Shown here: piece by piece, positions 56,360 to 57,658 of the stretch | Position numbering within the stretch: the first letter of the stretch is position 1 | How the letters are laid out: each line of letters starts with the position of its first letter | Origin: Streptomyces sp. cg36 | GTDB lineage: Bacteria; Actinomycetota; Actinomycetes; Streptomycetales; Streptomycetaceae | Length of the DNA: 64,000 bases | Assembly (NCBI RefSeq): GCF_041080675.1 | Contig: NZ_CP163520.1 | Location: forward strand, 4,402,001 to 4,466,000 | Direction: 5' to 3' | The notes under the pieces: model-generated | The model's database searches: none | What the model was told of the DNA's origin: nothing | Seen by the model: the letters and a program-made list of their open reading frames with translations, nothing else | Program-made: the position numbers and the translations under genes

Positions 56360-57010
56360 GTGACCGATCACGACCCCGCGGCCATGCGCCGCCAGTACCG
56401 CACCACCCTCCTCGACGAGGCGGACCTCGCGGCGACCCCGATGGCCCAGTTCGCCCGCTGGTTCAAGGAGGCCGTCACCGCGGGGCTGCACGAGCCGAAC
56501 GCCATGGTCGTCGCCACGGCGACCCCCGACGGCCACCCGTCGACGCGCACGGTCCTGCTCAAGGCGTACGACGACCGCGGGTTCGTCTTCTACACCAACT
56601 ACGCCTCCCGCAAGGGCCGCGAACTGGCGGCGAACCCGCGCGTCTCGCTGCTCTTCCCCTGGCACCAGATCTCCCGCCAGGTGATCGTCACCGGCACCGC
56701 CGGGCAGGTGCCGCGGGAGGAGACCGAGGCGTACTTCCGCTCCCGCCCGCACGGCTCGCAGCTCGGCGCCTGGGCGAGCCCCCAGTCCGCCCCGCTCGCC
56801 TCCCGGGCGGAACTGACGTCCCGTTACGAGGAGTTGGCGGCCCGCCACCCCGAGGGCACCGAGGTCCCGGTGCCGCCGCAGTGGGGCGGCTTCCGGATCG
56901 TCCCGGAGGCGGTGGAGTTCTGGCAGGGCCATGAGAACCGGCTGCACGACCGGCTGCGCTATGTGCCGGCGGGGCCGGACGAGTGGCGCGTCGAGCGCCT
57001 CGCCCCGTAG
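56360..57010 (+). CDS. pdxH: Pyridoxamine 5'-phosphate oxidase
   Basis: A 216-residue FMN enzyme that oxidises pyridoxamine or pyridoxine 5'-phosphate to PLP. It has the family start [35 protein letters not shown] with the FMN-binding Arg/Lys, [17 protein letters not shown], the [13 protein letters not shown] segment, and the C-terminal motif [15 protein letters not shown] with the substrate-binding Arg residues. Length fits. GTG at 56360 gives the usual N-terminus. A long inverted repeat follows after 27 bases. Confidence 0.95.
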
Positions 57011-57037
57011 CGCCCGGCGGGGCCGGGACACGCAGAA

Positions 57038-57098
57038 ACCCGCGGGCTCGGGTTCCTCCGGAGAGGAGCCGGCCGGACGTGCCGGCGAGCCCGCGGGT
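57038..57098. terminator. 13-bp inverted repeat after pdxH, also end of the minus-strand transcript
   Basis: ACCCGCGGGCTCG (57038-57050) and CGAGCCCGCGGGT (57086-57098) pair perfectly around 35 bases that contain a smaller hairpin (57051-57070). On the minus strand the 3' arm is followed by TTCTG, a weak U tail. On the plus strand it lies 27 bases after the pdxH stop, so it can end both transcripts. Confidence 0.7.
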
Positions 57099-57163
57099 CG
57101 GTGACTGCTGGGAATTCGGCCGGCGACAAGCCGGCACCGCACAGAGAGTGCGACTGGCAGGCG

Positions 57164-57202
57164 CTAGCCCGCAGTCACCTCACGCGTCCGGTATCCATAC
57201 AT
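57164..57202 (-). CDS. 12-residue leader-like peptide MYGYRTREVTAG
   Basis: ATG at 57202 is preceded by GGGAGGTGG with 8 bases spacing, one of the strongest ribosome sites in the window, and runs to TAG at 57164. The peptide has two Tyr and two Arg codons in the first eight, the amino-acid bias seen in some attenuation leaders. Its last four codons form the 5' arm of the closing stem of the downstream fold. It is too short for standard gene calls. Confidence 0.55.
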   Translation of the reverse strand: MYGYRTREVTAG

Positions 57203-57235
57203 CTGCCGAACCACCTCCCTTCTCGTGTGCACCAC

Positions 57236-57264
57236 ACATTAGGAAGCCGCGCGGGGCGCGACAA
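57236..57264 (-). promoter_or_regulatory. Promoter TTGTCG-N17-TAATGT for the small transcript
   Basis: On the minus strand TTGTCG (57259-57264) and TAATGT (57236-57241) are exactly 17 bases apart, a good match to the housekeeping sigma pattern in Streptomyces. It lies 20 bases after the VOC gene's stop and points away from it toward the peptide ORF. Confidence 0.65.
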
Positions 57265-57283
57265 CCGAATTAACGGCCGCTCT

Positions 57284-57658
57284 TCACCCGGCCCGTTCCC
57301 CGGCGGACCGCTCCACGCAGAACTCGTTGCCCTCGATGTCCGCGAGGGTCACCCACCCCCCGCCGTCGGGGCGCCGGTGGTCGCCGACCAGGGTGGCGCC
57401 GAGGGCGAGCAGCCGGTCCACCTCCTCGTCGCGGGTGCGGTCCTGGGGCTGGAGGTCGAGGTGGACGCGGTTCTTCACGGCCTTGGCGTCCTCGACCGCC
57501 ACGAAGAGCAGCGCGGCGCCCTCGGTGGTGACCAGGGCCTCCGGGTCGCCCGGGAGGTCCTCGTCGGCGAGCTTGCCGTCGAGGACCGCGGCCCAGAAGG
57601 TGCCGAGGGCGTGGGCGTCGGCGCAGTCGAACGTCACATGACGTACAAGTGAGGTCAT
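57284..57658 (-). CDS. VOC (glyoxalase-like) family protein
   Basis: A 124-residue protein of the vicinal-oxygen-chelate fold (two beta-alpha-beta-beta-beta units). Segments are HVTFDCADAHALGTFWAAVL at the start, KNRVHLDLQPQDRTRDEEVD in the middle and GGWVTLADIEGNEFCVE at the end, with His and Glu in metal-binding places. It could bind a small drug or metabolite; no substrate is evident. ATG at 57658 is preceded, on its strand, by CATAGT exactly 7 bases upstream, so the mRNA is probably leaderless. Confidence 0.85.
   Translation of the reverse strand: MTSLVRHVTFDCADAHALGTFWAAVLDGKLADEDLPGDPEALVTTEGAALLFVAVEDAKAVKNRVHLDLQPQDRTRDEEVDRLLALGATLVGDHRRPDGGGWVTLADIEGNEFCVERSAGERAG

Follow-up and report, generated by a model that had tools for sequence, protein, structure and literature searches.

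A catalogued actinobacterial small RNA, RF02471, lies on the minus strand at positions 57034-57230 of the window (the whole stretch of 64,000 nucleotides of Streptomyces DNA that was analyzed). Comparison with relatives suggests that it is a stand-alone structured RNA which is probably, although we hold this with modest confidence, a translation-gated switch that would be either folded or translated but not both at once. At the center of this reading is a 12-codon open reading frame (ORF), of which codons 5-11 appear to form one structural strand that pairs with the loop of a 3′ hairpin (pseudoknot), with the 5′ end of the RNA (helix P0) and with a downstream partner (helix P1). The comparative support, drawn from sequence alignments and pair counts, was strongest for P0 and the ORF.

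The RNA was matched by cmscan to RF02471 (Ms_IGR-5) at window positions 57030-57228 of the minus strand with 90.8 bits (cut-off 45, E = 7.2e-19). The alignment covers model positions 1-184 of 184, i.e., the full length without truncation, and is the sole gathering-level Rfam match within the 64 kb. The core pattern of the RNA occurs once in the window and in none of 100 shuffles. A match to RF01068 (Guanidine-II) at 56859-56909 scored 17.9 bits, below its cut-off of 32, and was set aside. The original prediction had called the RNA uncharacterised. This holds for its function, for which nothing was found in the literature available, but not for the RNA itself, which is cataloged and, according to the accessible text of the respective studies, transcribed in S. 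lividans (PMC8079986) and S. avermitilis (PMC8780764) as well as transcribed and annotated as a small RNA in M. smegmatis (PMC10454040). The features of the locus are:

57034-57230, minus strand: small RNA, member of RF02471 Ms_IGR-5 (cmscan)
57236-57264, minus strand: putative promoter with a −35-like TTGTCG (57264-57259), 17 nt and a −10-like TAATGT (57241-57236) (sequence)
57205-57223, minus strand: ribosome-binding site complementary to the 16S rRNA 3′ tail, 16 nt at 57223-57208 and 19 contiguous pairs to 57205 with G-U pairs included (sequence, relatives)
57164-57202, minus strand: 12-codon ORF, ATG at 57202 to TAG at 57164, MYGYRTREVTAG (frame, start and stop conserved in relatives)
57224-57227, minus strand: 5′ strand of P0, CACG, predicted to pair with 57184-57181 (RNAalifold helix with covariation)
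57181-57184, minus strand: 3′ strand of P0, CGTG, codon 7 and the first base of codon 8 (RNAalifold, pair counts)
57171-57179, minus strand: 5′ strand of P1, GGTGACTGC, end of codon 8 into codon 11 (pair counts, swaps)
57100-57108, minus strand: 3′ strand of P1, GCAGTCACC (pair counts, swaps)
57185-57190, minus strand: 5′ strand of the pseudoknot, CGGACG, codons 5-6 (comparative)
57074-57079, minus strand: 3′ strand of the pseudoknot, CGTCCG, in the loop of the 3′ hairpin (comparative)
57206-57210, minus strand: 5′ strand of H1, the hairpin holding the start codon, predicted to pair with 57191-57187 (fold energies of own versus swapped strands; weaker pair counts)
57187-57191, minus strand: 3′ strand of H1, with bases common to the pseudoknot strand (fold energies)
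57037-57098, minus strand: 3′ hairpin with a terminator-like outer stem, the pseudoknot loop on the inner hairpin and a weak T tail (sequence and fold)

The promoter, ribosome-binding site, ORF, 9-bp closing stem and terminator hairpin with its weak tail, all of which had been proposed from the letters of this locus, are indeed found in the minus-strand sequence, and GGGAGGTGG lies between promoter and ORF. A generic scan called neither the promoter nor the terminator here (0 promoters, 0 terminators). The start, placed earlier at about 57229, is predicted at about 57230 from the conserved 5′ end. Counting back from the first G of GGAGG, T, T, and G are found at 46, 45, and 44 nt in 166, 169, and 133 of 252 relatives, respectively, and a T at 23 and at 18 nt in 149 relatives each. 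With TTG and T(A/T)...T enriched at a fixed distance in these 252 sequences, the promoter-like sequence is partly conserved. Upstream of the −35-like box there is also an A-run (53-52 nt before GGAGG, A in 186/252 and 199/252), comparable to promoters with UP elements. As previously noted, pdxH (pyridoxamine phosphate oxidase; 56360-57010, plus strand) lies antisense and is convergent to the small RNA. A Glyoxalase_6 (VOC) gene (57284-57658, minus strand) is located upstream of it, and a GNAT gene (plus strand) and a citrate synthase gene (minus strand) are farther away (all named by Pfam).

The comparisons used 252 distinct sequences out of 265 loci, anchored at a GAG codon of the ORF; L078 and L080, which carry the RNA without being anchored by the expression, and 11 duplicates of the first 120 nt were left out. 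Of these sequences, 139 came from loci found by Rfam alone (L001-L145) and 113 from loci (L146-L265) fetched by a pattern with GGAGGTGRTYC, GGAC and GTGAGGTGNC, so that those letters are no evidence in the latter set. The pseudoknot tests used the 223 or 244 sequences with an assignable loop, and searches of the whole 3′ region used 243. Since the shuffles treat relatives as independent, the significance of all such tests is inflated.

The reading frame is conserved throughout these relatives. With no frame imposed, an ATG, GTG or TTG located 12-18 nt from the first G of GGAGG was found in the GAG frame of 242 of the 252 sequences, and from every one of these 242 starts 11-14 codons are read before a stop (12 codons in 227). 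The other two frames had 1 and 7 such starts, reading 8 and 1 codons. The same test on the 139 Rfam-only sequences placed 129 starts in the GAG frame versus 1 and 4 in the others. Once CTG, ATC, and ATT are allowed, a start is present in 251 relatives, L128 having none. Because three start codons interchange, the start is not fixed by one letter of the Rfam model, nor is it fixed by the fetch pattern. The stop lies exactly 15 nt after GAG in 252/252 relatives (TAG 209, TGA 24 and TAA 18 among the 251 with a start), although TAG is favored by the Rfam consensus itself. The GGAGG-to-GAG distance is 36, 37 or 38 nt in 232 sequences, steps which are not multiples of three, and despite this variation the start is found 21 nt before GAG in 227. 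The remaining two frames of the ORF stretch contain stops in 177 and 241 of 251 relatives; the stretch is therefore not stop-poor. The accessible text of PMC4974804 reports ribosome reads for the homologues in M. abscessus and M. smegmatis and adds that most characterised E. coli non-coding RNAs also show footprints; ribosome reads on a small RNA are no proof of translation.

P0 was detected by RNAalifold in 29 aligned relatives. It is fully paired in 219 of 252 sequences when G-U pairs are counted and a one-base register shift is allowed, compared to at most 168 in swapped controls; without the shift, four pairs form in 191 sequences, three in 24 and none in 37. The pairing letters occur in 15 combinations, including the complete exchanges CCAG/CTGG, CTTC/GAAG and CGTG/CACG. 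Three of the pairs vary; in a set of 58 dissimilar sequences, two of these exceeded all 3000 shuffles and the third was reached by 5. With Watson-Crick pairs only, none of the 3000 shuffles reached any of the three, and slid controls did not exceed their shuffles.

In 193 of 252 relatives all nine pairs of P1, the 9-bp closing stem, can form (with GCAGYCACC), in 51 eight and in 8 seven; these counts come from a best-of-region search and are thus biased upward. Its own partner scored 16.00 versus at most 15.19 in 200 swaps (243 sequences), and versions that are changed but still paired occur (GGTGACCAT/ATGGTCACC and GGTGGCTAC/GTAGCCACC). An AATYCC-like strip at window positions 57116-57111, just 5′ of the P1 3′ strand and on the 3′ side of an internal loop, recurs in many relatives and is a possible binding site. 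A further putative stem, P2 (codon 11 past the stop), found no support, as 23 of 200 swaps were as good.

The putative pseudoknot joins xGGACy of codons 5-6 to GTCC in the loop of the 3′ hairpin. As only GTCC was sought for GGAC sequences, the 4-bp core is itself no evidence, which lies instead in the changes. Compensatory pairs are CGGATG/CATCCG in L108, CGGATT/AATCCG in L118 and TCGACC/GGTCGA in L126, and a search of the GGAT sequences for ATCC as well as GTCC found ATCC in 5 of 7. Five or more pairs are possible in 202 of 244 sequences and the core four only in 42. The base after GGAC pairs in 166/244 (at most 123 in 5000 shuffles), and the base before it in 130/244 (at most 119). A control slid by one base on the latter side gave 109 pairs, reached by 24 of 5000 shuffles, and 100 Watson-Crick pairs, reached by none of 5000. 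Because this control also beat most shuffles, which points to inflation of such tests by shared ancestry, only the base after GGAC is relied on. With redundancy filters of 0.84 and 0.78, that base paired in 77/122 and 46/76 sequences (at most 65 in 5000 shuffles and at most 42 in shuffles, respectively); at 0.72 the result was not significant (10/23, shuffle mean 7.0, reached by 476 of 5000), and a filter below 70% identity left 7 sequences. In the search of the whole 3′ region, the own partner scored 9.69 versus at most 9.05 in 200 swaps (243 sequences). In the window the pseudoknot hairpin and the terminator-like hairpin are nested, while they look separate in several outgroup sequences. Shorter versions of the RNA, with 15 nt between TCC and GTGGAGGTGGC, occur in the genomes G366, G425, G485, and G543; GGAC is absent there from G366, G425, and G543 (present in G485), and the pseudoknot may be missing or replaced in them. 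The hairpin H1 folded with −4.46 kcal/mol versus −3.77 at best in 300 swaps (83 reduced sequences), and H1 and the pseudoknot compete for GGAC.

The single-sequence minimum-energy fold of the window RNA reached −108.4 kcal/mol (z = −4.09, 0/200 shuffles as good) and contained neither P1 nor P0. Forcing the 9-bp stem of P1 gave −99.9 kcal/mol, a cost of 8.5 kcal/mol. Hence, the closing stem of the original prediction is backed by the swaps and the changed-but-paired versions and rests on comparative evidence, being absent from the minimum-energy fold. RNAalifold recovered only P0 and four P1 pairs from the 29-row alignment; the variable middle probably misaligns the rest, and own scripts with swap controls were used for this reason. 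The Rfam drawing pairs the ribosome-binding site with codons 10-11. All six of these pairs are possible in 126 of 252 relatives, but since the binding site hardly varies, this helix is neither supported nor excluded by pair counts.

RF02471 was present in 60 of 61 Streptomyces genomes, in 192 of 296 genomes drawn from the class and in all nine additional genomes of the order. In a draw from the phylum, 31 of 149 genomes had matches (15 above the cut-off), 21 of them outside the class (5 above the cut-off); these draws partly overlap. A simple core pattern was found in 75 of 246 phylum genomes, some of these by chance, as a reversed control also matched some. Only one of the matched genomes listed from the Streptomyces and class draws, G143, had two matches. 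When 21 of the 105 negative genomes were searched again, still no match was obtained, and in these the RNA is missing, diverged or unassembled. The only Streptomyces genome without a match, even in a laxer search, was G008 (5.5 Mb), which may reflect loss, divergence or an assembly gap. No phage-borne copy was seen, the exact core pattern having 0 matches in viral contigs. A metagenome-assembled genome labeled Spirochaetia (L208, VFLI01000053.1) carries the same ORF and similar 3′ elements at 1230-1276, and mis-binning is possible in this case. This survey supports the proposal of a regulatory RNA that stands alone and whose ORF overlaps a closing stem, as both stem and ORF are conserved across and beyond the class, whereas most of the peptide is not.

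Two of the roles initially considered for the locus were not supported. A gene for a functional 12-residue peptide would account for the conserved start, frame and stop and for the residues TREV[AT], which recur among the ORFs of the relatives. However, in the 227 relatives whose ORF has 12 codons, codons 2-4 show about the same variability at each of the three codon positions (entropy 1.54-1.75 bits, and 1.09 at codon 2 position 3), positions 1 and 2 being as variable as position 3, which argues that the peptide is probably not selected. Moreover, the constant residues sit where P0, P1 or the pseudoknot fix nucleotides, and codon 7 encodes R, C, S, G, or E, with changes that mostly accompany those of the RNA 5′ end. 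The peptide gene was rejected by this codon-position test and is very improbable; the ORF seems to be conserved as an ORF, with translation that looks kept and a peptide that mostly is not. Even less credible, to a degree that we would hardly entertain it, is a cis-acting leader or attenuator whose downstream gene has moved or decayed here. An ORF that overlaps a closing stem and precedes a terminator does resemble ribosome-controlled leaders, and the next downstream gene, by computed gene calls with an amino-acid score, is on the same strand in 92 of 252 relatives, but it is on the opposite strand in 144 (2 relatives showed none, and 14 loci break off too early). A rougher tally that includes antisense ORFs distributes 104 same-strand genes over 55 families, the largest with 10 members; no conserved downstream gene was found among the 252 relatives, and the ORF contains no run of codons for one amino acid. 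The attenuator was rejected on account of these varied neighbors. The RNA is also kept in nearly all of the Streptomyces genomes searched, and 35 of the 43 Streptomyces loci examined have a pdxH-like gene in the vicinity; such a gene is close, downstream and on the opposite strand in 60 of 252 relatives. In the mycobacterial loci listed, mostly a gene which we take to be pabC-like precedes the RNA, and varied genes, some of them presumably Rv0813c-like, follow it. Gene neighbors thus appear to change while the RNA stays.

The two other explanations concern what the RNA acts on. It may act on the ribosome itself, its 16-19 bp duplex with the 16S rRNA tail capturing 30S subunits (as a decoy, in hibernation or as a sensor of availability) and the downstream helices slowing the captured ribosome; we consider this possible, albeit on the doubtful side. 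All 16 tail positions can pair, G-U pairs counted, in 221 of 252 relatives, and a contiguous run of at least 16 within a 20-nt stretch is found in 240. In 1.68 Mb of locus DNA a run of 16 is reached by only 2 of the roughly 9,797 other GGRGG cores; four more matches there are the RF02471 RNA itself. The 9-Mb genome has eight sites that can pair with the 16-nt tail, namely six opposite 16S genes, the RF02471 RNA and one other. The duplex of the window RNA was computed at −33.3 kcal/mol, versus −11.5 and −12.6 at two common sites. Positions −3 to −1 face U and carry A or G throughout, apart from a single sequence at a single position, a pattern that fits G-U pairing. On the other hand, complete 16-nt pairing is not universal, with 9 of the 15 RNA-bearing Streptomyces genomes among G000-G015 showing it, and some relatives, such as G009, have several other sites for the 16-nt tail. 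The strong site may also simply serve efficient initiation, and titration would require copy numbers near those of ribosomes. In the rRNA genes seen, TCT closes the 16S tail (no match came from 18 of the 35 genomes searched, and one tail match, in G496, did not resemble rRNA), and as these tails share the same end, no compensatory test of the duplex is possible. An unlikely explanation is a non-coding, trans-acting small RNA that pairs with mRNAs and is only protected or stabilized by ribosomes covering its ORF. The stand-alone unit and the annotation as a small RNA in the accessible text on M. smegmatis (PMC10454040) speak for it, whereas no conserved free seed was established besides the ribosome-binding site and the AATYCC strip.

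Among known systems, trp-type leaders have a short ORF that overlaps a stem upstream of a terminator-like hairpin, and dual-function small RNAs with small ORFs, such as SgrS and SR1, encode functional peptides. The present locus resembles both mechanistically; it lacks a defining feature of the leaders and does not show that of the dual-function RNAs. With ribosome-controlled attenuators it shares the short ORF with a ribosome-binding site, overlapping a stem before a terminator-like hairpin, but unlike them it has no conserved downstream gene, codon run or mostly conserved peptide. With the dual-function RNAs (SgrS, SR1 and, as far as the accessible sources go, VcdRP) it shares a reading frame of its own. 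In contrast to them, the ORF itself appears to be the central strand of the fold, with codons 2-4 not conserved and later residues accounted for by RNA pairing. The tmRNA is likewise a stable RNA with a tiny ORF and a pseudoknot, but ARAGORN found 0 tRNA or tmRNA genes in 56900-57400, and the tmRNA reading was rejected on this result. Covariance models hold no pseudoknots. The locus is a full-length RF02471 member at twice the cut-off, but the Rfam consensus structure leaves GCAGTCACC unpaired, lacks P0, P1 and the pseudoknot and does not mark the ORF. Extended Shine-Dalgarno mRNAs of S. aureus are similar in their extended pairing with the anti-Shine-Dalgarno sequence; according to the accessible text of PMC13009471, those cases are mRNA start sites or leader ORFs, whereas RF02471 is a stand-alone RNA conserved across a phylum. 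No function, ORF, pseudoknot, P0 or 16S complementarity of RF02471 is described in the literature searched, which takes in only a minority of subscription papers. Under the names looked for, no passage on this RNA was found in PMC4109619, PMC8628891, PMC3207917, PMC5521070, PMC4633059, and PMC9094748; other names, such as MTS2823 or a generic IGR, occur there.

For the translation-gated switch, we envisage that without a ribosome the folded RNA would close P0 around the ribosome-binding site, with the start codon held in H1, or freed when the pseudoknot takes the shared GGAC. A bound 30S subunit would have to open the loop formed by P0, and a ribosome traversing the ORF would strip P0, P1 and the pseudoknot. 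Since a ribosome in codons 5-11 must open all three helices, the folded and translated states would exclude each other, and ribosome occupancy would set the shape, stability or partner binding of the RNA. A role as a switch or sensor is what we infer most directly from this anatomy. The ability of the start region to pair with the 16S 3′ tail suggests that the RNA senses or handles ribosomes, and the 30S subunit is the boldest candidate target. More tentatively, and with a greater chance of being wrong than right, the family may be an ancient RNA device of the Actinomycetota which reads free 30S subunits through the duplex with the 16S tail and, because the ORF is the strand holding three long-range helices, reports initiation by refolding; its "product" would then be the translation event, neither a peptide nor an antisense RNA.

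Orphan small RNA families abound in databases, and the anatomy described here offers a direct mechanism for one of them, an RNA spread over much of a phylum known for its antibiotic producers. What is conserved in its reading frame would be the fact of being translated, not the peptide, and the frame is fused with an RNA fold. If this reading is true, RF02471 would be a sensor of translation or of ribosomes that acts in trans.
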